Virus record (IMG/VR): IMGVR_UViG_3300029955_000075
Span: 1-37,916 of that record
Source: a virus
DNA length: 37,916 nucleotides
Reading direction: 5' to 3' (one strand)
The translations under genes were made by a program, and so were the position numbers. Below the pieces are notes generated by a model, which saw only the letters and a list, made by a program, of their open reading frames with translations, was not told the origin of the DNA and did not search any database. Within the stretch, counting starts at the first letter, position 1, and the number at the start of each line of letters is the position of its first letter. Positions 4,281-37,305 of this stretch are shown here, piece after piece.

Positions 4281-4287
4281 TACTGAG

Positions 4288-8198: not shown

Positions 8199-8212
8199 GG
8201 CCAAGGGCCTCC

Positions 8213-8407: not shown

Positions 8408-8426
8408 CGGATAGGCTCCTCGTGGA

Positions 8427-8612: not shown

Positions 8613-8664
8613 CTTCAGGGCTCCTTTTCTAAATTTACCGCAAGTCATATGGCTCAGTGGTAAC

Positions 8665-13307: not shown

Positions 13308-13407
13308 AACAATGTAGTTCAGTTGGTAGAACTGCGCTCCCTCATGGCTAAGGGCCAAAACGCCGGGAACAAAGCGTAAGCCGATGGTTCGAGTCCATCC
13401 GTTGTTC
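13308..13407 (+). tRNA. tRNA-like gene with a 34-nt anticodon loop
   Basis: A clean cloverleaf can be drawn: acceptor AACAATG/CGTTGTT (7 bp, one G-U), TA, D-stem GTTC/GAAC, anticodon stem GCGCT/AGCGT (5 bp), variable loop AAGCC, and T-arm GATGG-TTCGAGT-CCATC. The anticodon loop (13339-13372) is 34 bases instead of 7. No CCA is encoded and no placement of a simple insertion restores U33 in an obvious way, so the anticodon cannot be assigned. It may be an intron-bearing tRNA, a decayed tRNA or a tRNA mimic. Confidence 0.5.
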
Positions 13408-14085: not shown

Positions 14086-14163
14086 GCCGGGTTAGCTCAG
14101 TCGGCTTAGAGCGCCGGTTTTGTAAACCGGATGTCGCGGGTTCAATCCCTGCACCCGGCACCA
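14086..14163 (+). tRNA. tRNA-Thr(TGT)
   Basis: A complete cloverleaf: acceptor GCCGGGT/ACCCGGC, D-arm GCTC-AGTCGGCTTA-GAGC, anticodon arm CCGGT-TTTGTAA-ACCGG with anticodon TGT, T-arm GCGGG-TTCAATC-CCTGC, discriminator A and encoded CCA. It would read ACA and related Thr codons, which are rare in GC-rich hosts. It lies directly before the packaging genes, preceded by a hairpin (14055-14073) and CCTCCAAATTC (14074-14084). Confidence 0.93.
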
Positions 14164-22562: not shown

Positions 22563-23723
22563 ATGTCTCAGTTTCAGACCCAAGTCAACATCAACCCGGC
22601 CCCCGGCGTTGTTGGTGACTTTTGCTCGGCCAATCCCCGAGCCTCCGTCCTGGCCGGTCCTGGCGCTCTCGTCGCTGGTACCGCTGGCGTCTATATTGGC
22701 CGTTTCGCATGGGCTTATTCCAACGCTGGCGTGACCAATCCCCTGACTGGCGAAGTGGACGGATATTCGACTGTCGCCAACTATGGCGCAGGTACTCCCA
22801 CCGGCTTCGTTCACCGCGAACAGCAGGCGCTGATTACCGCCTTCCTGGCTTCCAACTCCTTGTTGGTCCCGACCGGCTATCCGGTTGTGCTGCATCAGGC
22901 TGGTGACTTCTGGGCTGTCAATAGCGGCACCACTTCCGCCTCGGTCAACCAGAAGGTCTATGTGAACAACTCCACTGGCTTGGTTTCGGCGGCTGCCACT
23001 GGTCAGACCATCACTGGCGCTAGTGTTACCGGCTCCATCGCCGTCAATTCCGGCTCTGCCAGCACCATCGCGGTCAACAGCGTTACCGGCTCCATCGCTG
23101 GCACCACTCTGACCGTTTCTGCCGTTGGCACCGGCGCGGTTTTCGTCGGCCAGACTTTGAGCGGCACTGGCGTTGCTACCGGGACCACCGTTACCGGCCT
23201 TCTGACCGGCACTGGCGGCAACGGAACGTATAGCGTGTCGATTTCGCAGACTGTGGTTTCTACCACCATTACCGGCTCCGGCGGCACTCTGACTGTTGGC
23301 GGCACTGTCACGGGCACCTTCGCCGTTGGTCAGACCTTGACCGGCACTGGCGTGACCGCTGGAACTGCCATTCTGAGTGCTATTTCCGGCACTGGTGGCG
23401 CTGGCACTTATGCCGTGTCGATTGCCCAGACCACTACCTCGACCGCTATCACCGCTTCCGGCGGCACTTTGACCGTGACCGTCGTTGCCTCTGGCGTTCT
23501 TGGCATTGATGACGTGATCTCTGGCTCCGGCGTGACCGCTGGCACCTATATCACCGCGTTCCTGACCGGCACTGGCGGCAACGGCACTTATCTGGTGTCT
23601 GCCTCCCAGACTGTTGCTAGCGAGACAATCACCGTCCAGTCCAGCACTGAGACTAAGTGGTATGTCATGAGCACCGCCGCCCCCGGCGAACTGATGAAGA
23701 TCAGTTCGTGGGCGCTGGGCTGA
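22563..23723 (+). CDS. Structural cement (gp24-like) protein with three added repeat modules
   Basis: The first ~150 residues ([47 protein letters not shown]) match the phage structural cement family, which strengthens the capsid shell next to the major capsid protein. From about residue 175 to 360 come three ~60-residue repeats rich in Gly, Thr, Ser and Val (units near 177-238, 240-298, 300-358), each with a GTGGxGTYxVS-SQT core. A short conserved tail ([20 protein letters not shown]) closes the cement domain, so the repeats are inserted. The protein should be displayed on the head surface. Confidence 0.85.
23085..23643 (+). repeat. Three tandem ~180-bp repeat modules in the cement gene
   Basis: Three units of about 180 bases code for the GTGG(N/A)GTY repeats. 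Units 1 and 3 share the exact 20 bases CTGACCGGCACTGGCGGCAA at 23202 and 23563, so copy number could change by recombination. Related modules lie in the sheath gene (28542-28920) and the gpJ gene (36595-36807). Confidence 0.8.
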
Positions 23724-23757
23724 TCCCCACTCTCAACCGGCTGAATAAGCTACGAGC

Positions 23758-23781
23758 AGCCCGCCTTCGTGCGGGCTTTTT
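23758..23781 (+). terminator. Intrinsic terminator between cement and capsid genes
   Basis: AGCCCGC (23758-23764) pairs with GCGGGCT (23771-23777), loop CTTCGT, followed by TTTT. It may lower read-through or mark the 5' end of a processed capsid mRNA. Confidence 0.75.
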
Positions 23782-23807
23782 CTTGACCGCACGAAAGGTC
23801 TAGCCCA

Positions 23808-24869
23808 ATGGCTCCCCGTCGTAATCCTGAATTCAATTATCTCGCGGACAATTTCGGCATCGTTCTGCCGGAAGCCGTCGATTTCTATGACGCCGATCTC
23901 GCTATGGATGCCCAGCCGTCGCTGATCACCACTTCCAACGGCGGCATCCCCTCTTTCCTGGTCAACTATTTCGACCCCAAGATCGTCGAAATTCTGACCG
24001 CCCCCCTGAAGGCTACCGAAATTCTGCCGGAAGCCAAAAAGGGCACCTGGGTTGACGCTACCGCCATGTTCGAGACGGCGGAATATACTGGTGAAGCCAC
24101 CAGCTATGGCGACTATCAGGAAACCGGCTCTGCTGGCCTGAATACCACTTTCCCGCAGCGTCAGAACTATCTGGCCCAGACCATGACCCAGTGGGGCGAG
24201 CTGGAATTGGAACGCGCTGGCCGTGGTCGCATTGACCTCGCCAGCCGCAAGCAGATTGCCAGCGCCAAGATTTTGGAGAAGTTCCTGAACAACTCCTATT
24301 TCTATGGCATCGCCGGTCTCCAGAACTACGGCATCCTGAACGATCCGAGCCTTCCCGCTCCGATCACTCCCGGCCCAAAGGCTTGGAACGGCGGCAATCC
24401 GGGCGGTTGGATCGTCAACAATGCCCAGGTGGCGACCGCCAACGAGGTCTTTGCTGACATTCAGAACCTCGTGACCAGCGTCATCACCCAGAGCGTCGGC
24501 GTCGTCACCGCCGAATCGCCTTTCCGTCTGGTCCTGGCCCCGCAGTCCTCGGGCGCTCTGAACAGCGTCACTCAGTTCAACGTGTCTGTGATGGACATGA
24601 TCAAGAAGAACTATCCGAAGCTGGAAGTCGTTGTGGCTCCCCAGTACGGTAGCGCTTCGAACGGTGGCCTGCTGCCCAGCGGTAACGTCGCCCAGATCAT
24701 TGCCACCGAAGTTGATGGCAACCCGACCGGCGTCTGCGCCTTCTCCGAGAAGCTCCGCGCCCATCGCGTTGTTCCCGGCACGTCGCACTTCAGGCAGAAG
24801 AAGACTTGCGGCACCTTTGGCGCTATTATCTGGTATCCCATCGCCTTCGCGTCGATGGTTGGCGTCTAA
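23808..24869 (+). CDS. Major capsid protein, DUF2184 family
   Basis: The 353-residue protein matches the DUF2184 (HK97-fold) capsid group: LPEAKKGTWVDATAMFETAEYTGE (region), GELELERAGRGRIDLASRKQIA, FLNNSYFYGIAGLQNYGILN and VVPGTSHFRQKKTCGTFGAI. It would build the icosahedral shell. The coding strand is GC-rich with uniform codon choice, as expected for a highly expressed gene. It lies between cement and the head-tail connector genes. Confidence 0.93.
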   Translation: MAPRRNPEFNYLADNFGIVLPEAVDFYDADLAMDAQPSLITTSNGGIPSFLVNYFDPKIVEILTAPLKATEILPEAKKGTWVDATAMFETAEYTGEATSYGDYQETGSAGLNTTFPQRQNYLAQTMTQWGELELERAGRGRIDLASRKQIASAKILEKFLNNSYFYGIAGLQNYGILNDPSLPAPITPGPKAWNGGNPGGWIVNNAQVATANEVFADIQNLVTSVITQSVGVVTAESPFRLVLAPQSSGALNSVTQFNVSVMDMIKKNYPKLEVVVAPQYGSASNGGLLPSGNVAQIIATEVDGNPTGVCAFSEKLRAHRVVPGTSHFRQKKTCGTFGAIIWYPIAFASMVGV

Positions 24870-24925
24870 GCCACAGTCGGGGCCATCTCCTCGGGGGTGG
24901 CCCCACTCTTTCGGAGGATTGCGGA

Positions 24926-25426
24926 ATGACCCGCCCCTATACTCGGAGAAATCAGAACGTGACAACCAACGTCGAAACCGTCGCCCCCGCCACCACTGGC
25001 GAAACCGTGACCATCGGGTGCAAGCTGCCCAACGGCCTGCATTTGGACTTGCACACTCCGACCGGCGCTAAACAGCGAATGGCCGATGGCAGCGAGTTCC
25101 CGATCTATGGCATCGAGCGCGTGACCGTGCGCGGCGGCTACTCAGGCGCTCAGCCGGGCGTCTTTTCCCTTCCCCCCGGCACCGCTGGCCTCACCCCTAA
25201 CGTCCCGAAAGACTTCTGGGAAAAGTGGGTCAAGGCTAATGCCAGCCTGCCCGTGGTCAAGAATGGCCTCGTCTTCGCCGCCAAGGATAATTCCTCGGCT
25301 CGGTCCATCGTCGCCGAGCGTGCGACCGTGCGGACTGGCTTGGAAGGTCTTGACAAAGACACCCCGGCCCCCGGCATGAAGGAAGTGAAACGCGCTGCTT
25401 CGGGTTTCCCTGAAGACGAGGAGTAA
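24926..25426 (+). CDS. Hypothetical head-region protein
   Basis: The 166-residue protein lies between the capsid and DUF4054 genes, a position where this phage group always has a small protein of this kind. The start at 24926 has GGAGG upstream; a longer in-frame start at 24806 would lie inside the capsid gene. GCKLPNGLHLDLHTPTG and FWEKWVKANASLPVVKNGLV are recognisable regions. Role unknown, perhaps head completion. Confidence 0.65.
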   Translation: MTRPYTRRNQNVTTNVETVAPATTGETVTIGCKLPNGLHLDLHTPTGAKQRMADGSEFPIYGIERVTVRGGYSGAQPGVFSLPPGTAGLTPNVPKDFWEKWVKANASLPVVKNGLVFAAKDNSSARSIVAERATVRTGLEGLDKDTPAPGMKEVKRAASGFPEDEE

Positions 25427-25431
25427 AAGTC

Positions 25432-25872
25432 ATGGGTGTCGTCGCATTCGATTATACCGCGTGGTCCGCACGGTATCCCGAGCTTGCCGCGTTTGTAGCG
25501 GAGCCGATGGCCCAAGCCTACTTCAATGAGGCACAGCTTTATTGCGACAACACCCCATGCAGCCCGATCCACGATGACAGTGTTGGGGGTCAGCGTTCGG
25601 TGATCCTCAACATGGCCACGGCTCACATTGCCGCGATCAATGCCCCGCTGAATAATCAGCCATCATCGCCGCTGGTGGGCCGCATTTCGAACGCCACAGA
25701 GGGCAGCGTGAGCGTACAGACGGAAAACCTCTATCCGCCTGGAACGGTTCAATTCTGGCAACAGACCAAGTACGGCGCGGCGTTTTGGGCGGCGACCACG
25801 CAGTTTAGGACGTTCCGATACGTCGCTCCGGTGCGATATCCGGGGCTTGGAAATGGAGTCCACCGATGGTAG
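25432..25872 (+). CDS. Head-tail connector, DUF4054 family
   Basis: The 146-residue protein has the DUF4054 pattern: FRA-like start FDYTAWSARYPELAAF, AQAYFNEAQLYCDNT, a helix with NMATAHIAAINAP, SVSVQTENLYPPGTVQFWQQTKYG. These proteins form a ring below the portal. It overlaps the next gene by 7 bases. Confidence 0.88.
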   Translation: MGVVAFDYTAWSARYPELAAFVAEPMAQAYFNEAQLYCDNTPCSPIHDDSVGGQRSVILNMATAHIAAINAPLNNQPSSPLVGRISNATEGSVSVQTENLYPPGTVQFWQQTKYGAAFWAATTQFRTFRYVAPVRYPGLGNGVHRW

Positions 25873-26423
25873 CCAAGACATTTACCGGCGGCGATAAGCT
25901 CCAAGATCGGCTGAACAAGCTGGCGAAGAAGCTGGGGCAATCGGCTTCGGTTGAGGTCGGATGGGCGGAAGGCGCGACGTATCCGGCGACTGGGGGCGGC
26001 GATCCTGTTTCTGTCGCATCCGTCGCCGACATTCAAGAGTTTGGCGCACCCAGGGCCAGCATCCCGCCGCGTCCGTTCTTCCGGCCTATGATTGCCAAGG
26101 AAAGCTCGACGTGGGGCGCAAAGCTTAATGCCGCGCTTGGATTGAATAACTGCGATGCCCACAAGGCTCTGAAGCTGGTGGGAGATGACATTGCGGGCGC
26201 ATTGGTTCAGTCGATTGCCGATGTGAACAGCCCGGCTTTGTCGCCGGTCACTTTGATGCTGCGAAAGATGCGGCAGCTTGATCCTGATTTGGTCGTGACT
26301 GGGAAAACCGTTGGCGAAGCTGCTGCAAAAGTCGCGGCAGGCCAGAGCACAAGCGGCGTATCCACCAAGCCACTGGTCGATAGCCGGACGATGATGAACA
26401 ACATCTCAGTCATGGTGAAATGA
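25866..26423 (+). CDS. Virion morphogenesis/neck protein (HK97 gp10-like)
   Basis: The 185-residue protein contains VEVGWAEGATYPATGG, VADIQEFGAPRASIPPRPFF and a following helix. The IPPRPFFRP motif is common to tail-completion or neck proteins of the gp10 type, which join head and tail. The C-terminal part ends with a TMMNNISVMVK strand as usual. Confidence 0.8.
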   Translation: MVAKTFTGGDKLQDRLNKLAKKLGQSASVEVGWAEGATYPATGGGDPVSVASVADIQEFGAPRASIPPRPFFRPMIAKESSTWGAKLNAALGLNNCDAHKALKLVGDDIAGALVQSIADVNSPALSPVTLMLRKMRQLDPDLVVTGKTVGEAAAKVAAGQSTSGVSTKPLVDSRTMMNNISVMVK

Positions 26424-26424
26424 A

Positions 26425-26733
26425 ATGTTTGACACGTCCGGCCATGTAGAGCGCAGAGACGCCATCCGCCTTGCCGTCATAACCGGCGACCAATCATGGC
26501 GCGAGACGGTCAATGCCCGCTTTGCTGCCTACATGCTCTTTCGCGCCAAATATGCGAGGGATACGGCGGACTTTCACGAAAGCCATATCGACGACGCGCC
26601 GAATCCAGCCCCTTTGCGCGACTTGATTGCTGCATTGCGGGAACAGGCCAATGCGATGGATGAAGCCGCGATGAGGGAAGCCGTTGCCGATCCTGTCGGC
26701 TCCGAGGTCATGTTGCGCATAGCGGGGTGGTGA
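26425..26733 (+). CDS. Hypothetical neck-region protein
   Basis: A 102-residue, mostly helical protein (MFDTSGHVERRDAIRLAVIT...). It begins one base after the previous stop and ends just before the next gene. Ala-rich helices (LIAALREQANAMDEAAMREA). No family is recognised. Confidence 0.55.
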   Translation: MFDTSGHVERRDAIRLAVITGDQSWRETVNARFAAYMLFRAKYARDTADFHESHIDDAPNPAPLRDLIAALREQANAMDEAAMREAVADPVGSEVMLRIAGW

Positions 26734-26734
26734 A

Positions 26735-27118
26735 ATGAACCTTCACTCGATTGTATCGGGCGCGGTATCGGCGGTTAACCCATTCATCACCGTGACCATT
26801 CAAGCCTCGGCTGGCTATACCACGAATGCAGACGGTTCGCGGTCGCCAGCTTATGCGGCACCGGTCAGCATCCAAGCTCAAATGCAAAGCCTACAATATA
26901 ACGATCTAGTTCAAATCGACGGCCTAAACATCCAGGGCGAGCGCAGGGCGCTTTATCTCAATGGCAATTGGGAGGCGACTTCCCGGCCCGATGGCAAGGG
27001 CGGCGACCTGATCACGTTCCCCGATGGATCCGTTTGGCTGGTGGCGCTTGTGCTCGAAAATTGGGCATTCCAGGATGGCTGGGTCAAAGTGTGCGTAACT
27101 AGGCAGAATGGATCATAG
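26735..27118 (+). CDS. Conserved head-tail region protein
   Basis: The 127-residue beta-rich protein starts MNLHSIVSGAVSAVNPFITV, with NIQGERRALYLNGNW and DLITFPDGSVWLVALVLE. I recall the same protein in many phages with this gene order, before the tail terminator. It probably takes part in the head-tail joint; the exact role is unknown. Confidence 0.7.
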   Translation: MNLHSIVSGAVSAVNPFITVTIQASAGYTTNADGSRSPAYAAPVSIQAQMQSLQYNDLVQIDGLNIQGERRALYLNGNWEATSRPDGKGGDLITFPDGSVWLVALVLENWAFQDGWVKVCVTRQNGS

Positions 27119-27126
27119 GGGAAATT

Positions 27127-27402
27127 ATGAAATTCAGAGACATCACAAATGGCGAAGTAACTCTATCGTCCCCCGATGGCCTTTATCTGTTCGAGAATAA
27201 CCCCATTGAGGGGTTGAACAAGAAGTGCATCATATCCGTGGGGCCAATGGATAAAACGCCCGGTGAAATCGTCGGTGCATTCACTGGATACGAGATTGAA
27301 TCCGTATCGACAATATGTGGCGGGTATCGAGAAACTCAATCTGAACGCAAAATTAGGTTGTCTCGCAATTTTGTGAAGATTGTTATTAAGCTCAAATCAT
27401 GA
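27127..27402 (+). CDS. Small protein inserted before the tail terminator
   Basis: A 91-residue protein (MKFRDITNGEVTLSSPDGLY...) with lower GC and more Lys/Ile/Asn than its neighbours, so it may be a recent arrival. GGGG precedes the ATG and the stop overlaps the next start (ATGA). Function unknown. Confidence 0.55.
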   Translation: MKFRDITNGEVTLSSPDGLYLFENNPIEGLNKKCIISVGPMDKTPGEIVGAFTGYEIESVSTICGGYRETQSERKIRLSRNFVKIVIKLKS

Positions 27403-27956
27403 CCCAACCCGTCCTTAGCCTAACCGAGAAACAGACGTTTACGGCGCTGCGGTCCTTCCTCCTCGCCATTCTGCCCGGCGGCATTGAAGTGGTGCGCGGC
27501 TTGGATAATCGCGTCGCAGAGCCTGAAGGCGTTGACTTTGTCACCATGACACCGATCATGCGCGAGCGGCTTGAGTTGAACGTCACAACCTATATCGATG
27601 GCGCTTTCCTAACGCCTCCGGTCGCTGGCAATCGGATTGATTTGCAGCCGACGAAGGTAACAATCCAGCTTGATGTGCATGGCCCGGCAAGTTCTGACAA
27701 TGTGCAGATTATCTCAACGCTGTTCCGATCTGGCTACGCTTCTGAATACTTCGCTGGGCTGGCGGTTGATGTATGGCCTCTCTATGCCAGTGAGCCGCGC
27801 CAAATGCCGTTCCACAATGGCGAGCAACAGGTGGAGGAACGATGGTCAATCGACGCCGTTCTTCAGGCCAACGCGACCGTGACCACGCCTCAAGACTTTG
27901 CTGATCAGCTTGTCGCTAACATCAAGGAAGTCGGGGCAGAATACCCCATCAATTAG
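27399..27956 (+). CDS. Phage neck terminator, gp12-like
   Basis: The 185-residue protein carries LTEKQTFTALRSFLLAILPG, EVVRGLDNRVAEPEGVDFV and MTPIMRERLELNVTTY, the usual start of gp12-like tail terminators. It caps the tail tube at the neck. The C-terminal half has a mixed strand-helix pattern and ends VANIKEVGAEYPIN. Confidence 0.85.
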   Translation: MTQPVLSLTEKQTFTALRSFLLAILPGGIEVVRGLDNRVAEPEGVDFVTMTPIMRERLELNVTTYIDGAFLTPPVAGNRIDLQPTKVTIQLDVHGPASSDNVQIISTLFRSGYASEYFAGLAVDVWPLYASEPRQMPFHNGEQQVEERWSIDAVLQANATVTTPQDFADQLVANIKEVGAEYPIN

Positions 27957-27989
27957 CCGGGACAATTTCCGGTAAGTTGCCAAACATCC

Positions 27990-28018
27990 GCCGCCCGGCT
28001 CCAGCTCGGCGGCTTTTT
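27990..28018 (+). terminator. Intrinsic terminator before the sheath gene
   Basis: GCCGCC (27990-27995) pairs with GGCGGC (28008-28013), followed by TTTTT. It sits between the terminator-protein and sheath genes and may set relative amounts of head and tail mRNA. Confidence 0.65.
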
Positions 28019-28043
28019 CTTTGCCTAACTGGAGCCTGTCGCA

Positions 28044-29960
28044 ATGACAATCCCCGCGTCAAACCTTGTTAACATCGTCCCGAGCGTCCTGTCTGCTGGC
28101 GGCTCTGGGCTGAATTTGAACGGCGTCTTTCTGACCACGAATACCCGCGTCCCCGTTGGCTCGGTTCTGTCGTTTACTTCTTCCGCCGCCGTCGCCTCCT
28201 ATTTCGGCGCGTCCTCGGTTGAGGCTGCCAACGCCGCTATCTATTTTGCGGGTTTCTCGAACTGCACGACCTACCCCACTGCCATGCTGTTTGCGCAGTA
28301 TGCCACTGTCTCGGTTCCGGCCTATCTGCGCGGTGGGAATGCTTCTGGCCTGACCCTGGCCCAGCTTCAGGCCATTTCTGGCGTCCTGAGTGTCACGGTC
28401 AATGGCGTGACGGCGACGAGCGGCACCATCAACCTGTCGGGGGCTACCAGCTTCAGCAATGCCGCCGCCCTGATCACCTCCGGGTTCGCCTATTTTGACG
28501 GCGTTGTCACTGGCTCGATTGCTCCCGAGACCTTCAGCGTTACCGGATCGATCACCGGCAACGTGCTGACCGTTTCGAATGTGTCCAGCGGCACCATTTA
28601 CGCCGGTTCGACCATTAGCGGTTCGAGCGTTATTGGCGGGACATCCATCATCAATCAGATTACCGGAACGGCTGGTGGCATCGGTACTTATACCGTGTCT
28701 GCCGTTCAGTCGGTGTCTTCGGAAACGATCAGTGGTGCCTATGGCGAGTTGACAGTCACCGCCGTCACATCCGGCGCTTTGGCCGTTGGTCAGGTTATCT
28801 CTGGAACTGGCGTTACCGTTGGCACGACCATTACCGCCGATATCAGCGGGACGGGCGGCGACGGCACCTACGTTGTATCTGTGAGCCAGACGGTTATCTC
28901 TGAGACTATTTCCGGGGGGCCTCTGACTTGCACATTCGATAGCGTGTCGGGCGCGTTCATTCTGACCGGCGGCACTCCCGGAACTGGCACCATCGGATAC
29001 GCCAGCGGCAGCCTATCGGCCTCGCTGTTCCTTACTTCCGTCACTGGTGCCGTGACATCGCAGGCCGCTCCCATTTCGGTCCCCGCCACATTCATGAATG
29101 CCCTGCGCATCGTCACCACTAATTGGGCATCGTTCACCACGATCTTCAATCCAGATGCTTATGGCAATGCGAACAAGCTGGCCTTCTCGGCTTGGACCAA
29201 CTCGACCAACAACGCCGTCGCCTATATCGCCTGGGATACTGATATCACGCCCACGCAAAGCACGGCTGCCACGTCCTCGCTGGGCTATCTGATCGGGCAG
29301 GCTCAATATTCCGGCACCATCTTGGTGTACGATCCCAGCGACAGCTACCTGAACGCCTTCGTTGCCGGGACTATCGCCAGCATCAATTATAATGCCAACA
29401 ATGGCCGCATCACTCTGGCTTACAAGTCGCAGTCTGGGCAGGCGATCACCGTCACCACCGCGACCGTTGCCAGCAACTTGATTGCCAACGGCTACAACTT
29501 CTATGGCGCGTATGCCACCGCTAATCAGCAGTTCAACTTCTTCCAGAACGGCTCGATCAGCGGAAAGTATCTGTGGGCCGATAGCTTCATTAACCAGATT
29601 TGGCTGAACAACGCCCTTCAGTTGGCTTTGCTGAACTTCCTGGCGAACATCAATTCCGTCCCGTACAACGCGGCTGGTGATGCTTCGATCTATGCCGTCT
29701 GCCAGGGCACCATCCAGCAGGCTCTTTCGAATGGCGTGTTCTCGCCCGGCGTCAATCTCTCCGCCGGTCAGATTGTGGAAGTCAACACCGCTGCCGGGGC
29801 CAACATCGCAGGCGTTCTCAGCACTCGCGGCTGGTATCTCCAGGTGCTTCAGGCCACTCCGCAGGTTCGCGCTGCCCGCACGTCTCCGCCGATCAACCTC
29901 TGGTACACCGATGGCGGATCGATCCAGCAAATCACCCTCGCTTCCATTGAGGTGCAGTAA
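28044..29960 (+). CDS. Tail sheath protein, DUF3383 family, with inserted repeats
   Basis: The 638-residue protein begins MTIPASNLVNIVPSVLSAGG and LNLNGVFLTTNTRVPVGSVL, the DUF3383 sheath start, and has RIVTTNWASFTTIFNP, IAYIAW-type strands and a C-terminal WYLQVLQATPQVRAARTSPP. It is much longer than the usual ~450-500 residues because two ~60-residue GTGGxGTYxVS repeats (about residues 167-231 and 234-292) are inserted. The insert lies in an apparently surface-exposed domain. Contraction of this sheath drives the tube into the cell. Confidence 0.88.
   Translation: MTIPASNLVNIVPSVLSAGGSGLNLNGVFLTTNTRVPVGSVLSFTSSAAVASYFGASSVEAANAAIYFAGFSNCTTYPTAMLFAQYATVSVPAYLRGGNASGLTLAQLQAISGVLSVTVNGVTATSGTINLSGATSFSNAAALITSGFAYFDGVVTGSIAPETFSVTGSITGNVLTVSNVSSGTIYAGSTISGSSVIGGTSIINQITGTAGGIGTYTVSAVQSVSSETISGAYGELTVTAVTSGALAVGQVISGTGVTVGTTITADISGTGGDGTYVVSVSQTVISETISGGPLTCTFDSVSGAFILTGGTPGTGTIGYASGSLSASLFLTSVTGAVTSQAAPISVPATFMNALRIVTTNWASFTTIFNPDAYGNANKLAFSAWTNSTNNAVAYIAWDTDITPTQSTAATSSLGYLIGQAQYSGTILVYDPSDSYLNAFVAGTIASINYNANNGRITLAYKSQSGQAITVTTATVASNLIANGYNFYGAYATANQQFNFFQNGSISGKYLWADSFINQIWLNNALQLALLNFLANINSVPYNAAGDASIYAVCQGTIQQALSNGVFSPGVNLSAGQIVEVNTAAGANIAGVLSTRGWYLQVLQATPQVRAARTSPPINLWYTDGGSIQQITLASIEVQ
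28542..28920 (+). repeat. Two repeat modules in the sheath gene
   Basis: Two copies of the Gly/Thr/Ser module shared with the cement and gpJ genes. The second copy (ISGTGGDGTYVVSVSQTVIS) is very close to cement units; the first has drifted (ITGTAGGIGTYTVSAVQSVS). Confidence 0.8.
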
Positions 29961-29962
29961 TC

Positions 29963-30394
29963 ATGTCGTCTATTTCCTCCGCTAACGCCGTATTCATGCT
30001 CGGCGTCACCGGCCTGTTTGCCACGCCTCAGCAACTGCAGGGCTTCGACGTTGACGATGCATTCGACGCCGAAGGTCTTGACGTCGCTGAAACCAAGATC
30101 GGCGTTGATGGCATTCTGTCGGCTGGCTTCGTCTTTACCATCGCCCCCACCACCATCGCTTTGCAGGCCGATAGTCCCTCGGTGTCGCTGTTCGAGGCTT
30201 GGTACACCGCCGAACGCGCCGCCCAGGACAAATACTTTGCCTTTGGGCAAATCCTGCTTCCTAGCATTGGCCGGTCATATACTTTGGTCAACGGCGTCCT
30301 GAAAAAGTATACGCCGTTTTCCTCGGCCAAGAAGATGTTGCAGCCCCGGTCATTCACCATTGACTGGGAAAGCATCATCGGAGCGGCCATCTAA
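29963..30394 (+). CDS. Tail tube protein, DUF3277 family
   Basis: The 143-residue protein has the DUF3277 start (SISSANAVFMLGVTGLFATP, QQLQGFDVDDAFDAE), then ETKIGVDGILSAGFVFTIAP and LQADSPSVSLFEAWY. It polymerises into the tube inside the sheath. It follows the sheath gene directly and its stop overlaps the chaperone start. Confidence 0.92.
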   Translation: MSSISSANAVFMLGVTGLFATPQQLQGFDVDDAFDAEGLDVAETKIGVDGILSAGFVFTIAPTTIALQADSPSVSLFEAWYTAERAAQDKYFAFGQILLPSIGRSYTLVNGVLKKYTPFSSAKKMLQPRSFTIDWESIIGAAI

Positions 30395-30888
30395 TGGCCC
30401 GCAAGGTTCTGACCGTCGTTATTTCGGCTGACGGGCGCGACAAGGGGAAGCACTTCCTCATCCGCGAAATGCCGGTGCGTCAGTCCGAATATTGGGGAAT
30501 GCGCGTTCTGTCTGCCATGGCGTTGTCGGGGGTGGAAGTCCCCGATGACATCGCTACTTCGGGCCTGGCAGGCGTTGCGGCTTTCGGCATTCGGGCCGTC
30601 ATGGGTTCGTTCGGCAAGCCGGAAATGCGGGAATTGCTGGACGAAATGCTGTTCAGTTGCGTATCGGTCATTCCCGATCCTGCAAAGCCCCATATCGTGC
30701 GCGGTGCAGGCGCTCTGCCTGAAATCCGCCCAGTTGGCGCTTTGCAGGAAGATGACATTGAAGAACTGGCGACGATGGCCCAATTGCGCCGCGAGGTGCT
30801 GTTGATGCACCTGGATTTTTTGCCGCCCGCCGTCCGCTCTCCCTTGGAGCACATTCTGGGGGCGTCGGGAAGTTCGCAGAATACGTAA
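30394..30888 (+). CDS. Tail assembly chaperone (short product)
   Basis: The 164-residue protein (MARKVLTVVISADGRDKGKH, REMPVRQSEYWGMRVLSAMA) has the N-terminal strand pair and helices of myophage tail chaperones, and lies between the tube and tape measure as they always do. It coats the tape measure while the tube grows. A GGGGG run near its end allows a longer form (next entry). Confidence 0.82.
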   Translation: MARKVLTVVISADGRDKGKHFLIREMPVRQSEYWGMRVLSAMALSGVEVPDDIATSGLAGVAAFGIRAVMGSFGKPEMRELLDEMLFSCVSVIPDPAKPHIVRGAGALPEIRPVGALQEDDIEELATMAQLRREVLLMHLDFLPPAVRSPLEHILGASGSSQNT

Positions 30889-31040
30889 ACGTTCCTGCCG
30901 CTATCGGGGCCGTGGTGTCAACTCGGATGGCTACGCTGTCCGAGCTTGACACCGTTTACGGCGCTGAAGACCTATATGACATGCTCGAAATAATCAGCGT
31001 TGACGCTCACAACAATCGAGTGGCGAATAAGAGGGATTGA
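30394..31040 (+). CDS. Tail assembly chaperone, predicted -1 frameshift product
   Basis: At 30858-30862 zero frame reads CTG GGG GCG. A -1 slip on GGG continues as GGC GTC GGG AAG and stays open to the TGA at 31038, giving 215 residues in place of 164. The new tail (VVSTRMATLSELDTVYGAED, DMLEIISVDAHNNRV) looks like the second chaperone part in related phages. This is the usual G/GT arrangement. No separate start with a good ribosome site is seen for the downstream part. Frameshifting itself is inferred. Confidence 0.6.
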
Positions 31041-31042
31041 CC

Positions 31043-32932
31043 ATGGCCGGTGATGTGATCGATAGATTGGTCGTTCTTCTGAACCTTGATCCTAAAGGCT
31101 TCACTGACGGTCAAAAAGAGGCTGTGAAGTCTCTGAAAAAGACCGAAGGCGAGGCCACTAAAACCGCCAAGAACATGCAGGCGGAAGGAAAAAAGGCTGG
31201 TGAGTTCTTCTCGGGCATCAAAACCCAAGTCCTGGCCCTCGGTGCCGCCTTCCTCGGCACGGCTGCGATCACGTCCTTTGCCAATCACATCACGGCTTCG
31301 GACGCGGCGCTAGGACGGCTGGCAACCAACGTCGGCATGTCCACCGAAGACCTTTCCGCGTGGGAAGGTGCCGCCGTCCGCGCTGGCGGCTCCGCTGCAG
31401 CCATGGACGCCACGCTCAAGGGCATGACTGCCCAGATGCAAGAGTTCCGATCCAAGGGCACCCTATCGCCCGAAATGCAGTTCAGCCTTGCGCAGTCTGG
31501 CATTGATCCGAACAAGTACCTCGCCGCCACCACAACCAATGTGGAACGGCTGGCGATGGCCGCTAAGGCTTTCAAGGGCATGGATGCGCCTCGTGCGCAG
31601 ATGCTCGGTAAGGGGCTTGGGTTTGACGAAGGAACCATCAACCTGTTGCTCAAGGGCGACGATGCCGTTGCTGCCCTGGTGGCGCGTCAGAAGGAACTGA
31701 ATGCAGTATCCAAGGCCGATACCGACGCTGCGATTGCTCGGGAAAATGCTTATAGCGATCTGACGGACACGTTCCAGGGCTTAGGTCGAACCATCCTCAC
31801 CGATGTTAGCCCGGCCATTGTGTCTCTGTTGGGCGAGTTTCAGAAGTGGGCGCAGGAAAACCGCGCCTGGATTGAGACTGGAATTGTTGACGGTATTAAG
31901 GATTTTGGCACATACATTCGCTCTGTCGATTGGGCGGCGGTAGGACAGGGCATCTCTGACTTTGTGCATGGGGCCAATTCAGCCGCTAAAGCTGTTGGCG
32001 GATGGAAGACGATTGCCGAGGGTCTATTCCTCATTTGGACGGGCGGAAAGCTGGCTGCGATGCTATCGGGCGTGTCTGCCCTGGCATCGGGAATGCTGGT
32101 GGCATTTGGGCCTGTCCAGCTCATGGTGGCTGGTATCGCTGCGTCTATTGCGGCGATCTCTTATGCCCGTGACCATGAGGACGAATGGCGGGCCAAATTC
32201 GACAATAAGGCCATAGGCGCGTTTCAGAAATCGGGACTAATGCCTGCGCCCAAGGGGCTAACGCCAGCCCAACAGGCATACGTTGCGAATGGTGGCGTTG
32301 CTCACTCTGCTGTTGCGGCTCTCATCGCCAGCGGCGAGGGAGATTACAACAGCGTCAATCGGGGCAAGGCTGGAGGATATAAATCCGGCACAGAAGACCT
32401 TGAAAACATGACCCTCGATCAAGTCATGATGGCGCAGAAGGTTGGCAAGTTCAACGCGGCTGGCCGTTATCAGATGATCAAGGGCACTCTTTCCGAGGCC
32501 GTAACCGCTCTTGGACTGAACGGTAAGGACAAGTTCAGCAAGGAAACTCAGGACAAAATCTTTTCTGAATATTTAGTGACGATCAAGCGCAAGGCTCTGG
32601 GGGACTATATCAGCGGCAAAAGCAATGACATAGACGCCGCTGTTAAATCCGCCGCTCAAGAATGGGCAAGCGTTGCTGATCCCGCTACTGGCAAGAGCTA
32701 TTATGCGGGCGTTGGAAACAATAAAGCTTCCATTTCATTGCAGCAGATGACCTCCGCCTTGCAACAGTCTAGAGCACAGAATATGGCTTCAAACACCAAC
32801 TCCAGCGAAGTCAACATCCAAAATCTGCATCTAACTACGACTTCGAATGATCCCTACGATCATGCGGCCAGTGTGATGGATGGCCTTAAACAATACAACA
32901 TGGCATCGCAGGCAAACTATGGGACTAGCTGA
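31043..32932 (+). CDS. Tape measure protein with lysozyme-like domain
   Basis: The 629-residue protein sets tail length and travels into the cell with the DNA. The N terminus (VIDRLVVLLNLDPKGFTDGQ) and following coiled coil are typical, and hydrophobic segments (about 325-380) could cross the inner membrane. Residues about 425-535 resemble a muralytic domain of the lambda endolysin/GH104 type: IASGEGDYNSVNRG with probable catalytic Glu432, and AAGRYQMIKGT. It would open the peptidoglycan during entry. I start at 31043, which has GAGGG upstream, not at the TTG two codons earlier. Confidence 0.88.
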   Translation: MAGDVIDRLVVLLNLDPKGFTDGQKEAVKSLKKTEGEATKTAKNMQAEGKKAGEFFSGIKTQVLALGAAFLGTAAITSFANHITASDAALGRLATNVGMSTEDLSAWEGAAVRAGGSAAAMDATLKGMTAQMQEFRSKGTLSPEMQFSLAQSGIDPNKYLAATTTNVERLAMAAKAFKGMDAPRAQMLGKGLGFDEGTINLLLKGDDAVAALVARQKELNAVSKADTDAAIARENAYSDLTDTFQGLGRTILTDVSPAIVSLLGEFQKWAQENRAWIETGIVDGIKDFGTYIRSVDWAAVGQGISDFVHGANSAAKAVGGWKTIAEGLFLIWTGGKLAAMLSGVSALASGMLVAFGPVQLMVAGIAASIAAISYARDHEDEWRAKFDNKAIGAFQKSGLMPAPKGLTPAQQAYVANGGVAHSAVAALIASGEGDYNSVNRGKAGGYKSGTEDLENMTLDQVMMAQKVGKFNAAGRYQMIKGTLSEAVTALGLNGKDKFSKETQDKIFSEYLVTIKRKALGDYISGKSNDIDAAVKSAAQEWASVADPATGKSYYAGVGNNKASISLQQMTSALQQSRAQNMASNTNSSEVNIQNLHLTTTSNDPYDHAASVMDGLKQYNMASQANYGTS

Positions 32933-33576
32933 TGGCAAACGGTCTTCCTAACCTGCTGAATAACCCGCTGGGAACGGTTAACGCGGTGTCGCTGCTTGTA
33001 GCCGATGCTGCGCTGATCTACAGCCTGTTCAACAAACCGCAATGGGGCGTCTATCTCAACGGCAGCCCCGCCATCATCCCTGATAGCATCGTCGGCGTCG
33101 AGTACAAGCATGATTGGCGGAATGCCACCGCTCCCCAGGGACAGGGGGCTTTTGCCGATTACAACAAGGTTCAGACGCCTTTTGAAGCTCGCGTCACCAT
33201 GACCAAAGGTGGCCCGATTGAAGAACGCCAAGCCTTTCTGACGGCATGTGAGGCGGCGGCAGGCTCGCTCGACCTCTACACCATTGTCACACCCGAAATC
33301 TCGTACCAGAGCGCCAACATCACCCATTACGATTACCGGCGCACTTCGCACAACGGCGTCACGATGCTGACGGTTGATCTCTGGCTTGAGGAAGTCCGCG
33401 TCACCGGCACGGTTGCCTATGCCAACACACAGCAGGCGAGCGGGGCCGGGCAGGTCAGCGACGGCACGGTTCAGCCCCAGACGCCAACGCCAGCCCAGGC
33501 CGCGACAGCCCAGGTAGCGCCATCGCCTCCCGATCTCGCGGGCACGGGCTTTACACTCGGGGGCTTTGTGCAATAA
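32932..33576 (+). CDS. Baseplate protein, Dit-like N-terminal domain
   Basis: The 214-residue protein has KPQWGVYLNGSPAIIPDSIV and GVEYKHDWRNATAPQGQGAF, then YNKVQTPFEARVTMTKGG, characteristic of the Dit-like phage tail protein group. A Pro/Ala/Gln-rich tail (PQTPTPAQAATAQVAPSPP) follows. It begins on the last base of the tape measure stop. Confidence 0.82.
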   Translation: MANGLPNLLNNPLGTVNAVSLLVADAALIYSLFNKPQWGVYLNGSPAIIPDSIVGVEYKHDWRNATAPQGQGAFADYNKVQTPFEARVTMTKGGPIEERQAFLTACEAAAGSLDLYTIVTPEISYQSANITHYDYRRTSHNGVTMLTVDLWLEEVRVTGTVAYANTQQASGAGQVSDGTVQPQTPTPAQAATAQVAPSPPDLAGTGFTLGGFVQ

Positions 33577-33890
33577 TGCAAATCATCCCGATTGCCGATG
33601 TCTATTCGCAGACGCTCAATGTCACCCTAGCGAATCAGTCCTGCACAATAAACCTATACCAGACAACTAATTACGGCCTGTTCTGTGACCTCTACGTTAA
33701 CAACGTCTTGATCATCGGGGGCGTTATTTGTCAGAATCTCAACCGCATCGTGCGAGACACCTACCTTGGATTCGTTGGCGACCTGACCTTTCTGGATAAC
33801 CAAGGCCAGAATGACCCTTCGTCGCCGGGCCTTGGGACGCGATTTTCCCTATGCTATTTGAGCGCGAGTGACCTGAACGGGGCCGGATGA
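33576..33890 (+). CDS. Baseplate plug protein
   Basis: The 104-residue beta-rich protein (MQIIPIADVYSQTLNVTLAN, VNNVLIIGGVICQNLNRIV, DLTFLDNQGQNDPSSPGLG) matches the small phage baseplate plug family. It closes the inner baseplate near the hub. Overlaps neighbours by one and four bases. Confidence 0.85.
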   Translation: MQIIPIADVYSQTLNVTLANQSCTINLYQTTNYGLFCDLYVNNVLIIGGVICQNLNRIVRDTYLGFVGDLTFLDNQGQNDPSSPGLGTRFSLCYLSASDLNGAG

Positions 33891-34771
33891 TGGGATCGTT
33901 TACGCAAAAACTGATCACCCTGACATTCAAGCTCGGAACCGGCACCTTTGGTGAGACTGGCTCGAATATTGTCACTTTTTCCGGCCTGCGCTGTACGGTC
34001 CAGATTGTGGCGGCTGGCGGACCTTCAATGGGTCAAGCCAGCATCCGCATTTTCGGCCTAACCATGTCGCAAATGAACAGCCTATCAAGCGTGGTCCGTC
34101 AAGCCGATGGACAGATTGCGACGCGGCTTAACTCAATCCAGATCACGGCGGGCGATAGTTCATCAATGCCTGTGATTTTCCAGGGTCAAGTGACATCGGC
34201 CATTATCGACATGTCCGGTATGCCAGACACGGCAATGGTCTTTGCGGCTCACGCGGGCGCGTTTGAGGCCATCAAGATTGTTCCGGCCTCCAGCTATCCG
34301 GGTGCCGCTGATGCGGCTGTTATCCTCGCCACCCTGGCCCAGCAGAACGGATACGCATTCGAAAACAATGGCGTTTCCGTCCTGCTATCGACGCCGTACT
34401 TTTCCGGCTCCCCCCGCGATCAGATGCTGGCTTGTGTCCGCGCCGCTGGCATCGAATGGAATGGCCTTGATAATGGCACTCTGGCAATCTGGCCTAGGGG
34501 TGGGTATCGCGGGCAGGCAAACAACGTGCCGCTGATTTCAGCCGCTACCGGGATGATCGGCTATCCGGTCAATCGGGATTACGCCATCACCGTTCGGACC
34601 CTGTTCAACCCGCAGGTTTTGAACGGCCAAGTCTTCGAAATTCAGAGCAGCCTTGCGTATGCGAACGGCAAATTCATCGCCCATGAGATAGCCCACGATA
34701 TTTCTTGCGAAATGCCAGGGGGGCCATGGTTCTCAACCTTCACCGGGACGCCTCTCAATGCCCAATCCTAA
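33887..34771 (+). CDS. Baseplate hub protein
   Basis: The 294-residue protein has the hub-type N-terminal barrel (KLITLTFKLGTGTFGETGSN, TVQIVAAGGPSMGQASIRIF, GLTMSQMN) and a later LFNPQVLNGQVFEIQSSLAY strand region. Related to gp27/gp44-type hubs that join tube and spike. Overlaps the spike gene by 14 bases. Confidence 0.82.
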   Translation: MMGSFTQKLITLTFKLGTGTFGETGSNIVTFSGLRCTVQIVAAGGPSMGQASIRIFGLTMSQMNSLSSVVRQADGQIATRLNSIQITAGDSSSMPVIFQGQVTSAIIDMSGMPDTAMVFAAHAGAFEAIKIVPASSYPGAADAAVILATLAQQNGYAFENNGVSVLLSTPYFSGSPRDQMLACVRAAGIEWNGLDNGTLAIWPRGGYRGQANNVPLISAATGMIGYPVNRDYAITVRTLFNPQVLNGQVFEIQSSLAYANGKFIAHEIAHDISCEMPGGPWFSTFTGTPLNAQS

Positions 34772-35528
34772 CGGCGGCAACAGCTTCACCGGCTTCCAGA
34801 AGGTCAATTCTTCTGGGAATGAGTTCAATACTCAGGACTTCTTTGTCCGGTCGATCCTGGCAAAGGTTCGCACGGCAATTCCGGTCAAAGTCATGGCCGT
34901 CACCAACTCAGGCGCAGACATACCGGCGGGCTATGTGGACATTCTGCCGCTTGTGAACCAAGTGGACGGCCTCGGAAACTCGCAGACCCATGGCACCATT
35001 TATAAATGCCCGTATTTCCGGCTTCAGGGCGGTTCGAATGCCGTCATTCTTGACCCGCAAGTTGGGGACATCGGACTAGCCTGTTTCGCTGATCGGGACA
35101 TATCCAGTGTCCTCGCCACGCAAGGGCAAGCCAATCCCGGCAGCGGGCGCACGTTCGACATGGCAGATGGGGTTTATGTCGCTGGGTTTCTGGGCCAGAC
35201 GCCAACTCAGTTTGTGCAGTTTTCGACAACGGGAATTTCGGTTGTGTCGCCGGTCAAAATCACGCTTACGGCCCCGCTTGTTGAGGTTGATGCTTCTACC
35301 TCATTCACCGTCAACTCGCCGCAATCAACCTTCAGTGGGGCAGTTACGATTGAGGGGCTTTTGACCTTCCTGGCTGGCATCGTTGGATCAACGGCAAGCG
35401 GGGTATCTGCGATGATCACGGGCGCAATTCAGTTCATTGGCACCTTGACCAGCAACGGCAAGGCCATTGACAGCACCCACGTTCACACTTCCGAAACTCC
35501 CGGAACTCCGACGAGCCCGCCGCTATGA
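34758..35528 (+). CDS. Membrane-puncturing spike, Gp138 family
   Basis: The 256-residue protein has an OB-like N-terminal domain (AKVRTAIPVKVMAVTNSGAD, IYKCPYFRLQGG, DIGLACFADRD) and a beta-helical needle (SPVKITLTAPLVEVDASTSF, VTIEGLLTFLAGIV). It ends near HVHTSETPGTPTSPP, the His-x-His site that holds iron in phage spike tips. A trimer pierces the outer membrane. Confidence 0.9.
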   Translation: MPNPNGGNSFTGFQKVNSSGNEFNTQDFFVRSILAKVRTAIPVKVMAVTNSGADIPAGYVDILPLVNQVDGLGNSQTHGTIYKCPYFRLQGGSNAVILDPQVGDIGLACFADRDISSVLATQGQANPGSGRTFDMADGVYVAGFLGQTPTQFVQFSTTGISVVSPVKITLTAPLVEVDASTSFTVNSPQSTFSGAVTIEGLLTFLAGIVGSTASGVSAMITGAIQFIGTLTSNGKAIDSTHVHTSETPGTPTSPPL

Positions 35529-35878
35529 CGACATCTCTATACCTGACCACCGGGCCTTGGGATTTGGTAGCTGACGCTTCCGGCAACATCGCCGTTTGCT
35601 CGGAGCCATACCGCCTCGCTCAGGACGCCGCCACGGCCATTCGAACATGGCTTGGCGAGGTCTTTTATGACACTACCCAGGGCATTACCTATGCCCAATT
35701 TCTCAGCGTGACGAATGCCTCGGCCAATGCCATCCGCGCTCAAATGGTGGCTGCCGCCGAAGCTGTGCCGGGCGTGGTTTCGGCTAAGGTCTTCTTCTCC
35801 AGCGTCTCCGGGCGAGTTCTCACCGGGCAAGTCCAAGTGACTGACGGCTCTGGAGCGGTATCAGTCGCCAGTTTCTAG
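35525..35878 (+). CDS. Baseplate wedge protein, gp25/gpW-like
   Basis: The 117-residue protein (TGPWDLVADASGNIAVCSEP, RLAQDAATAIRTWLGEVFYD, TTQGITYAQFL) belongs to the small baseplate wedge group. It joins the spike complex and sheath to gpJ. Starts in an ATGA overlap. Confidence 0.85.
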   Translation: MTTSLYLTTGPWDLVADASGNIAVCSEPYRLAQDAATAIRTWLGEVFYDTTQGITYAQFLSVTNASANAIRAQMVAAAEAVPGVVSAKVFFSSVSGRVLTGQVQVTDGSGAVSVASF

Positions 35879-35886
35879 GGGCATCT

Positions 35887-37305
35887 ATGACCTACACAAC
35901 GAATGTTCCCGCGCCGGTTTTTGGTGCATCGGGATTTATTGCGCCGACTGAAGCCCAAATCCTGACTGGCGTTTGGGCCGATTCCCAGGCGGCTTTCGGC
36001 GGCACCCTCAATGAAAGCCTGACCACCCCACAGGGACAGCTTGTCACGTCCGAGACGGCCATCATTGGCGATTGCAACGACCAATTCCTAGCCCTGGCGA
36101 ACGGCGTTGATCCCGCCTATGCCGCCGGTCGAATGCAGGATGCTATCGGGAGGATTTATTATCTGACCCGCATTGCCGCATCTTCGACGGTTGTGACTGC
36201 AACATGCTCAGGGTTAATCAATACGCCTATTCCGGTTGGGGCGCAGGCCCAGGACCAGGCGGGCAACCTCTATCTCTGTACCGAGGCCGGGACCATTCCT
36301 GCCGGGGGAAGCATTAATCTAACCTTTGCTTGCGCCACCACCGGCCCGATTGCATGCCCTATCGGCTATCTCAGCGCGATCTATCAGGCAATCCCAGGCT
36401 GGGATAGCATCACGAATGCGGCTGCCGGGGTGCTTGGAAGCAATGTTGAAACCCGCGCTGAATTTGAGTTTCGCCGGTATAATAGCGTTGCGGCCAATGC
36501 CCTCGGCTCGGCTCCGTCGATCCTTGGAGCGGTCCTTAATGTTCCGGGCGTTCTTGACGCCTATGTTCTGGACAATCCCCTTTCGGTCACGTCCGGGGCG
36601 TCGTTTACTGGCTCGATCACTGGCACCACGCTAACTGTATCCGCAGTTGCATCCGGCACTCTGGCAGTCGGTCAAACTGTGGTCGGAACGGGCGTTGCAC
36701 AAAGCACCCTGATCTCTGGTCTTATTTCCGGCACAGGCACGACTGGCACATATCAGGTTAGCGTCTCGCAATCCGTTGGATCAGAGGCCCTTATATCGGC
36801 GGTTGGTGGATTTCAGCTTGTGCCCAACAGTACATATGTCGCCGCCTATGGCGGATTGGCTCAATCGGTAGGGCAAGCTATCTGGTCTAAGAAGTCCCCC
36901 GGAAGCAATTACAACGGCAATACAACTGTGACCGTCACAGACGCCGCCAGCGGGTACAACCCGCCCTATCCGAGCTATTCCGTCACCTTCGAAATTCCAA
37001 CCCCCACGCCGGTCCTATTCGCGGTTTCGCTCCAGAATAATTCGAGCGTCCCATCTAATGCCGTGGCACTTGTGCAAGCGGCGATCATCCAGTCCTTCAC
37101 CGGCGGCGATAATGGCCCCAGAGCTCGCATTGGCAGTTGGATTTTCGCATCGCGCTTCTATGCCAACATTGCCGCGCTTGGCTCCTGGGCCTCGATCTAT
37201 TCGGTATTGCTCGGCGTTGGCGCTGCAAATCAAACGTCTGTCTTGATGCAGATTAATCAGGTGCCGACGATCTCTGCGTCTAATATCAGCGTGGTCTTTT
37301 CGTAA
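35887..37305 (+). CDS. Baseplate J-like wedge protein with one inserted repeat
   Basis: The 472-residue protein matches baseplate J/Mu gp47: an N-terminal domain (AQILTGVWADSQAAFGGTLN, LTTPQGQLVTSETAII), the core with ETRAEFEFRRYNSVAANALG and SAPSILGAVLNVPGVLDAYV, and the C-terminal VTFEIPTPTPVLFAVSLQNN. One ~65-residue Gly/Thr module (about 237-307) is inserted after AYVLDNPLSVTSG. It forms the wedge that triggers contraction. RBS is modest (AGGGGC). Confidence 0.9.
   Translation: MTYTTNVPAPVFGASGFIAPTEAQILTGVWADSQAAFGGTLNESLTTPQGQLVTSETAIIGDCNDQFLALANGVDPAYAAGRMQDAIGRIYYLTRIAASSTVVTATCSGLINTPIPVGAQAQDQAGNLYLCTEAGTIPAGGSINLTFACATTGPIACPIGYLSAIYQAIPGWDSITNAAAGVLGSNVETRAEFEFRRYNSVAANALGSAPSILGAVLNVPGVLDAYVLDNPLSVTSGASFTGSITGTTLTVSAVASGTLAVGQTVVGTGVAQSTLISGLISGTGTTGTYQVSVSQSVGSEALISAVGGFQLVPNSTYVAAYGGLAQSVGQAIWSKKSPGSNYNGNTTVTVTDAASGYNPPYPSYSVTFEIPTPTPVLFAVSLQNNSSVPSNAVALVQAAIIQSFTGGDNGPRARIGSWIFASRFYANIAALGSWASIYSVLLGVGAANQTSVLMQINQVPTISASNISVVFS
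36595..36807 (+). repeat. Single repeat module in the gpJ gene
   Basis: Encodes [20 protein letters not shown] then QTVVGTGV and ISGTGTTGTYQVSVSQS, the same module as in the cement and sheath genes. It interrupts the core of gpJ between recognisable family segments. Confidence 0.8.

Follow-up and report, generated by a model that had tools for sequence, protein, structure and literature searches.

An apparently undescribed domain at recurrent sites of head, neck, sheath and baseplate proteins in a clade of contractile-tailed phages

How does one and the same small module come to sit in three unrelated virion proteins of a single phage, and what might it do there? The question is raised by the virus record IMGVR_UViG_3300029955_000075, whose 37,916 bases (the whole stretch analyzed, referred to below as the window) encode, among the late genes, a cement protein, a tail sheath and a baseplate J-like protein (gpJ) that share a module of ≈ 60 residues in six copies, three in the cement protein, two in the sheath and one in gpJ. 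A preliminary description of this DNA had taken the module to be an inserted, mobile display domain that spreads inside one genome. The analysis presented here bears out the insertion; the copies are old and have been inherited with their genes at recurrent sites, and the module apparently represents an undescribed domain family. The features concerned are the following.

22563..23723, + strand, cement (capsid decoration) protein with three tandem modules (Pfam PF23982 and PF22758, phrog_2122)
23079..23273, + strand, module copy cement 1 (profile of copies)
23274..23453, + strand, module copy cement 2 (profile of copies)
23454..23633, + strand, module copy cement 3 (profile of copies)
27399..27956, + strand, neck/tail terminator protein (Pfam PF23961, E 1e-19; phrog_1876)
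27594..27638, + strand, empty insertion site in the terminator, approximate, at the relatives' main site (alignment, coordinates hand-counted)
28044..29960, + strand, tail sheath protein (DUF3383) with two tandem modules (PF11863, E 5e-127; phrog_205)
28536..28733, + strand, module copy sheath 1 (profile of copies)
28731..28913, + strand, module copy sheath 2 (profile of copies)
35887..37305, + strand, baseplate J-like protein (gpJ) with one module at site A (PF04865, E 6e-12; phrog_6, E 5e-51)
36601..36792, + strand, module copy gpJ site A (profile of copies)

The coordinates of the six copies stem from a profile built on those same copies; as an independent check, three profiles, each omitting the copies of one host protein (cement, sheath or gpJ), were run against 529 six-frame open reading frames (ORFs) of the window. 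With the respective protein left out, cement copies 1-3 were recovered at domain E values of 4e-21, 1e-13 and 7e-19, sheath copies 1-2 at 3e-12 and 7e-22, and the gpJ copy at 2e-17, and no further ORF among the 529 appeared at domain E <0.05. Because all six copies are found in this way (E ≤3e-12), the resemblance across the three proteins is not due to chance, and the module stands in cement, sheath and gpJ as had been proposed. DNA repeats with a 180-base spacing agree with the module copies. Furthermore, the same phage with the same layout recurs in other IMG/VR contigs (L089, L091 and L060, 99.9-100% identity), so the arrangement is no assembly accident. In L090, again the same phage, a single base difference at the module start splits gpJ into two ORFs (7441-8196 and 8200-8898), which may be an error or a real variant.

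The product of 22563..23723 is a phage cement protein, both by its Pfam profiles (PF23982 with E 5e-23 and 82 bits, PF22758 with E 3e-15 and 57 bits, cut-off 27) and by its decoration-protein fold, and that of 28044..29960 is a DUF3383 tail sheath, with 425 bits to PF11863 (cut-off 34.9) and a sheath fold; gpJ scores 45.9 bits against PF04865 (cut-off 21.1) and belongs to the baseplate J-like proteins. Family sequence flanks the inserts: phrog_205 covers sheath residues 1-635 and phrog_6 gpJ residues 7-470, and in the cement protein the Pfam matches precede the insert, the last 26 residues are conserved in the alignment, and the fold match reaches residue 383. The insertion is borne out by empty sites in relatives as well. 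In the alignments the inserts have sharp ends; the sheaths of loci L107 and L114 stop at the site and resume with nothing between, gpJ of L094, L101, L103, L107 and L110 is empty at the site used here, and where L117 has one module in its cement protein, that of the near relative L122 has none. Along these lines, matches in isolated phages span 1,449-1,479 bases for the sheath, against 1,914 here (60 of 465 matches listed), and 1,167-1,248 bases for gpJ, against 1,416 here (first 41 of 551 matches listed); among the matches listed they are too short to hold the module, which supports the insertion. For the cement protein, none of the 60 isolated-phage matches listed extends past the insertion point, their ends lying at query residues 141-173.

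Are the sites of insertion particular to this phage? A total of 178 loci with a related sheath was collected, repeats of one phage included and 80 of them being contigs of bacterial genomes, and a module profile from 135 copies was searched against their 31,877 ORFs. It located 448 copies in 290 ORFs and none in reversed sequences. Modules occur in 82 of 178 sheaths, 62 of 124 cement proteins, 69 of 133 gpJ proteins and, in addition, 64 of 173 terminators; the terminator of the window phage has none, and in relatives the same protein carries one or two (alignment). The positions are narrowly defined: a single one holds 79 of the 82 site entries in the sheath, and positions 146-159, taken as one site, hold 62 of 63 in the cement protein. 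In the terminator, 63 of 74 entries fall near position 71 and 10 at position 29, and in gpJ site A near position 234 accounts for 23 and site B at position 380 for 48 of 74. Site A is used by the window phage, site B by the Hyphomicrobiales representatives L094, L121, L123, L124, L137 and L165, and both are filled in L109 and L250. Thirteen more ORFs carry the module, one of them a head protein (phrog_3645), and the tandem number in cement and sheath ranges from 1 to 3. It can be concluded that there are six recurrent sites, one in the cement protein, one in the sheath and two each in terminator and gpJ, inherited with the genes and subject to some gain, loss or change of site. Fifteen pairs of genes that are at least 72% identical differ in module number, and only the difference between the terminators of L101 (one) and L204 (two) is real; the other 14 trace to genes cut by contig ends or to the split gpJ of L090 and were discarded as events.

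Recent spread among the proteins of the window phage's genome would account for three unrelated proteins of one genome carrying the module, and the site changes within gpJ and terminator fit with it. This explanation was confronted with a set reduced to 129 representatives at 95% sheath-core identity. The nearest copy was determined for 291 module copies, those covering fewer than 46 of the 63 profile positions being left out. For 206 of the 291 it lies in the same protein and slot of another phage, for 64 in another protein of another phage, and for 19 in the same protein of another phage but in a different slot; two copies have it within the same phage, one of them across proteins. Cross-protein identity is 0.455 within a phage (467 pairs) and 0.452 between phages, with 0.452 (standard deviation 0.004) for shuffled phages. 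Moreover, modules are already present at the same cement and sheath positions in relatives whose sheaths are 50-57% identical. Because the nearest copies occupy the same slot and identity within a phage is no higher, the copies are regarded as old and inherited with their genes; the proposed spread inside one genome is not borne out, and in its recent form it appears highly improbable.

All four genes, whole or cut, are present in 77 of the representatives; in the presence table of these 77, a zero includes genes cut by contig ends (L198, L114 gpJ). One clade of 38 sheaths, with a value of 99 in the Shimodaira-Hasegawa-like approximate likelihood ratio test, has at least one module in 38 of 38 members, compared with 5 of the other 39. 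The pattern that the preliminary description had opposed to spread within the genome, vertical inheritance at the same positions, is thus found within this sheath clade, but only there. The fewest presence changes on each gene's tree amount to 4 for cement, 6 for the sheath, 3 and 6 for the two terminator sites, and 4 and 5 for those of gpJ, counts that do not tell gain from loss. The trees come from quick searches, and after removal of rows with ≥40% gaps they retain 75 cement, 70 sheath, 77 terminator and 70 gpJ sequences of the 77.

On an older timescale the module did move between proteins, as judged from the ordered cassette described below and from the alternative sites in gpJ and terminator. 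First modules of cement and sheath are 0.50 identical, which is the level among the first sheath modules of different phages (0.50), and second modules are 0.49 identical across the two proteins, compared with 0.52 and 0.57 when each slot is compared with itself; for crossed pairs the values are 0.44-0.46. The corresponding order statistic is 0.033, against a mean of 0.000, a standard deviation of 0.005 and a maximum of 0.012 in 200 swaps, and by eye the lead-in residues of the cement and sheath inserts look alike. We read these sequence relations as a two-module ordered cassette that moved between cement and sheath, at least once and long ago.

In Fisher tests the co-occurrence of modules looks strong, with all four proteins bearing them in 17 of the 77 phages and none in 34. 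Independent pairs on the tree are few, not significant and too few to reach significance, and two long branches meet there; co-occurrence was therefore dropped as evidence for a selected coat over the whole particle.

Could the modules be tolerated passengers, i.e., repeats that settle in loops and are retained although the phage has no use for them? Their presence in some relatives and absence from others, and the variable tandem number in cement and sheath, would be in keeping with this. The ratio of nonsynonymous to synonymous substitution rates (dN/dS) of the module lies between 0.05 and 0.54, with a median of about 0.22 (24 finite values of 27 comparisons; the pairs share branches, and dS is saturated in several of them), and that of the host parts between 0.07 and 0.31; the module value exceeds that of the host part in 16 of the 23 comparisons in which both are finite. 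The modules are under purifying selection, with a constraint slightly below that of the host proteins. Given dN/dS <0.6 in 24 of 24 finite comparisons from pairs that share branches, the confidently predicted folds and the retention of at least one module by every member of the sheath clade, the passenger explanation is improbable. In gpJ of the pair L117/L122 the flanks are ≈ 97% and the module ≈ 75% identical (by eye), with a dS of 0.40 in the module and 0.12 in the flank; this hints at a local module replacement and serves as a lead, other pairs having no such dS excess as a rule.

What kind of domain is it? AlphaFold2 was run on alignments of the translated loci, and the best of five cement models was taken (the five range from 86.9 to 70.4 in the mean predicted local distance difference test, pLDDT). 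Mean pLDDT is 86.9 for cement and 86.5 for the sheath, with 83-97 and 72-96, respectively, for ten-residue blocks of the modules, and both models predict a small beta barrel for the module. The cement core matches the decoration proteins of E217, Pa193, Pam3 and XM1 (8frs, 9b40, 8hdt and 7kmx; Z 13.7-14.7), and the sheath model matches those of Pa193 (Z 34.8) and E217 (Z 33.8) over 450 residues in the range 21-625, flanking the insert. The module region itself aligns with many translation GTPases and with two chains of ATP synthase over 63-76 residues, with Z values of 5.2-7.0 and a root mean square deviation (rmsd) of 2.5-3.3; Z <8 may mean only a common arrangement. These EF-Tu domain 2-like matches mostly cover residues 166-241; some span 150-361, beyond one module, and two longer ones have an rmsd of 15. 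Among the solved folds aligned, the model thus tentatively suggests a small beta barrel resembling EF-Tu domain 2.

Sequence families give little further guidance. No model of the EF-Tu sequence family matched in the three proteins of the window or in an artificial doubled module consensus, which gave FeoA at E 1e-4 (22.6 bits, cut-off 23) and CopC at E 0.04. No immunoglobulin (Ig)-like Pfam model appeared at E ≤1 in the cement, sheath or gpJ protein of the window. Weak signs of an Ig-type fold are the CopC match of the artificial consensus, a below-cut-off match of CATSPERG_Ig-like in gpJ of the relative L109 (E 0.03, partly over the module) and a protein named BIG2 among the BFVD matches of a module-bearing model (E 1.4e-3). 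No Ig fold was aligned to the module region among the solved folds, which does not exclude an Ig fold. The Arthrobacter phage Bridgette capsid chain 8eci_1 resembles cement model residues 170-340 (Z 7.0, rmsd 7.6, 88 residues, 24-27% identity), a likeness of fold only, with no sequence or profile match in the PDB and homology not established. Neither Pfam nor NCBIfam has a model that matches the module above cut-off (with no NCBIfam match at E ≤1), and the PDB has no sequence match at E ≤10; the best value for the module profile there, E 0.45, is at chance level, and Foldseek of the cement model against the PDB gave no match at E ≤0.001. In each of the three proteins of the window, the module is matched by parts of two PHROGs, phrog_21413 (unknown function) and phrog_38233 (tail fiber protein), which represent clusters of whole proteins (595 and 896 positions) and not a named domain. 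The module was not found named in those parts of the open-licence literature covered by searches with the module letters and for add-on virion domains of phages. Apparently, therefore, it constitutes an undescribed domain family.

The family extends beyond the clade. At least 484 IMG/VR loci with the module were found from one peptide pattern. From 80 of these loci, 125 module ORFs formed 28 clusters, of which 27 were scanned (the window's own gpJ being left out); beyond the module they match head closure Hc3, a minor head protein, sheath, terminator, baseplate wedge, tail fibres and others, and 7 of the 27 match only the module's own PHROGs or nothing. Some module proteins have matches to the fibre family phrog_12796, and in Sinorhizobium phage phiLM21 the module resides in an annotated tail fibre protein (73.9 bits). 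Searches with tblastn in isolated phages returned one of 50,697 records at E 1e-3 for the cement modules and three at E 0.1 for a relative's module, counts that are no proof of absence since BLAST masks low-complexity letters. Fold matches of the cement model in BFVD include A0A6J5SIT1, a phage HK97 major capsid protein (48% identity, 86 columns), and A0A1V0SDM6_2, a collagen-repeat protein of a giant virus (Indivirus). Occurrence in head, sheath and baseplate together was seen as stated before, but its being called unusual has to be weakened: 28 of 42 records picked for the module have it in two or more ORFs (two of the 28 being the window phage), and in phage Douge, discussed below, Ig-like domains cover capsid and tail tube.

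With regard to hosts, modules are present in 18 of the 80 bacterial loci that have a related sheath, namely 8 of 8 in Hyphomicrobiales, 3 of 13 in Burkholderiales, 2 of 30 in Acetobacterales, 5 of the 6 for which no order is named, and none of 23 in seven other orders (11 of them Enterobacterales). These counts are confounded with phage ancestry, and L116 (a Mesorhizobium prophage) and L118 of the eight Hyphomicrobiales loci form one phage cluster.

Where on the particle would the modules lie? Gp24 of E217 forms trimers at threefold and quasi-threefold axes with a surface protrusion (PMC10329688), and in XM1 gp53 residues 1-95 bind the shell and 95-160 trimerise (PMC10457771); by sequence order, the cement insert would fall in the part matching the trimerising region. 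The XM1 sheath insertion domain and E217 sheath domain A belong to the same sheath family and represent an extra domain in the N-terminal domain (PMC10457771, PMC10329688); these solved sheaths comprise 495-504 residues, compared with 638 here. From alignment and model, the sheath insert appears to lie in this part, and in our reading the modules sit inside the XM1-type insertion domain or E217 domain A. Sheath residues about 93-150 and 295-345 recall, by eye, a flagellin/FliD-type pattern. Similarity to FliD D3 has been reported for the XM1 insertion domain (PMC10457771). If the pattern holds, the sheath module would be nested in an inserted domain. If the E217 copy numbers hold (180 decoration trimers, 204 sheath subunits), extrapolation would give of the order of 2,000 modules per virion. 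Display on the particle surface is plausible.

Taken together, the module may be a self-contained barrel, an exposed add-on at sites of virion proteins that tolerate it, in relatives also in the neck terminator and another head protein. Many copies over head and tail surface could bind host or matrix polysaccharide weakly and multivalently and so keep the virion close to the cell until its fibres take hold, in the way described for the Ig-like domains of Douge. Such adhesion is regarded as the most likely role, with an even chance of being right, followed by stabilisation of the particle. It is favoured because Ig-like domains of phages, including those of Douge, provide a precedent, and the occurrence in tail fibres (phiLM21, phrog_12796 matches) counts for it.

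Several points weigh against adhesion. The presence of modules in several proteins could be due only to shared ancestry, the fold match in the models is weak and points to no ligand, the exposure is argued from homologues, and the window phage's own fibre-like protein of 1020 residues, encoded beyond the window, is without a module at E 1e-3. Alternatively, the modules might mainly stabilise the particle, the barrels touching their neighbours or adjacent subunits, reinforcing head and sheath or serving as spacers, with no ligand involved. Cement proteins are described as reinforcing capsids (PMC10457771), extra sheath domains have been proposed as tail stabilisers (PMC9230969), the predicted models show tandem copies and long shared strands, and purifying selection fits this function equally. 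The module occurs, however, in proteins with very different neighbours (tail fibres, baseplate, head closure), and sites filled in some relatives and empty in others suit a free-standing domain better than a built-in contact, so that stabilisation is a possible, though rather doubtful, main function.

Ig-like domains on bacteriophages were reportedly described by Fraser et al. in 2006 and 2007 (cited in PMC9230969 and PMC13033339). They resemble the module in being small beta domains added to capsid and tail proteins, with a proposed weak binding of carbohydrates and exchange among phages; in contrast, the present module is nearest to EF-Tu domain 2-like barrels and has no Ig-like Pfam match, and one family here spans cement, sheath and baseplate, plus the neck in relatives. 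Among published sheath proteins, the extra domains are for the most part Ig-like, and roles in adhesion or stability have been suggested for them (PMC9230969). The closest parallel in coverage of the whole particle by a repeated small domain is mycobacteriophage Douge, for which 919 surface Ig-like domains on major capsid and tail tube proteins are described; when expressed they bind the host surface and glycans, and adsorption is slower when a glycan is missing (PMC13033339). Douge is a mycobacterial siphophage with an Ig-like fold and experimental glycan binding, whereas the present case concerns a contractile tail and probably another fold. The far-reaching proposal is that of a non-Ig barrel family, common among environmental phages, which in a single clade, infecting Alphaproteobacteria of soils and plants (8 of 8 Hyphomicrobiales loci), forms an exopolysaccharide-binding coat on head, neck, sheath and baseplate and has spread between virion proteins as multi-module cassettes. 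It is put forward tentatively and seems less likely to be right than wrong. If true, this coat would be the non-Ig counterpart of the glycan-binding coat of Douge.

Some other features of this phage may be listed. Record L265 of the same phage encodes, at 1252-4314 beyond the window's end, the fibre-like protein mentioned above, which is LamG-like by eye, and contains no module besides the six. The ORF at 10390-10989 has repeated ANL-type pentapeptides and probably encodes a pentapeptide-repeat protein. Matches to tRNA lie at 14086-14163, 13308-13407 and 11616-11695, the first a tRNA-Thr by ARAGORN and Rfam, the two others by Rfam only. On the minus strand, the ORF at 8683-9543 reads by eye like a serine recombinase, which suggests a temperate phage.

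What is apparently new here is the domain family; the way of life of an add-on virion domain is already known. For phages, the standard example of such a domain is the Ig-like one. The module represents a further family, apparently without annotation, that behaves alike; hundreds of viral loci contain it, and in four to five virion proteins it occupies fixed, defined positions. Naming it would annotate stretches of phage proteins that now have no assignment. Furthermore, it becomes testable what use phages make of a coat of small domains, as the same site is filled or empty in relatives, hosts such as Mesorhizobium and Rhizobium can be grown in culture, and the module is of a size that lends itself to expression.

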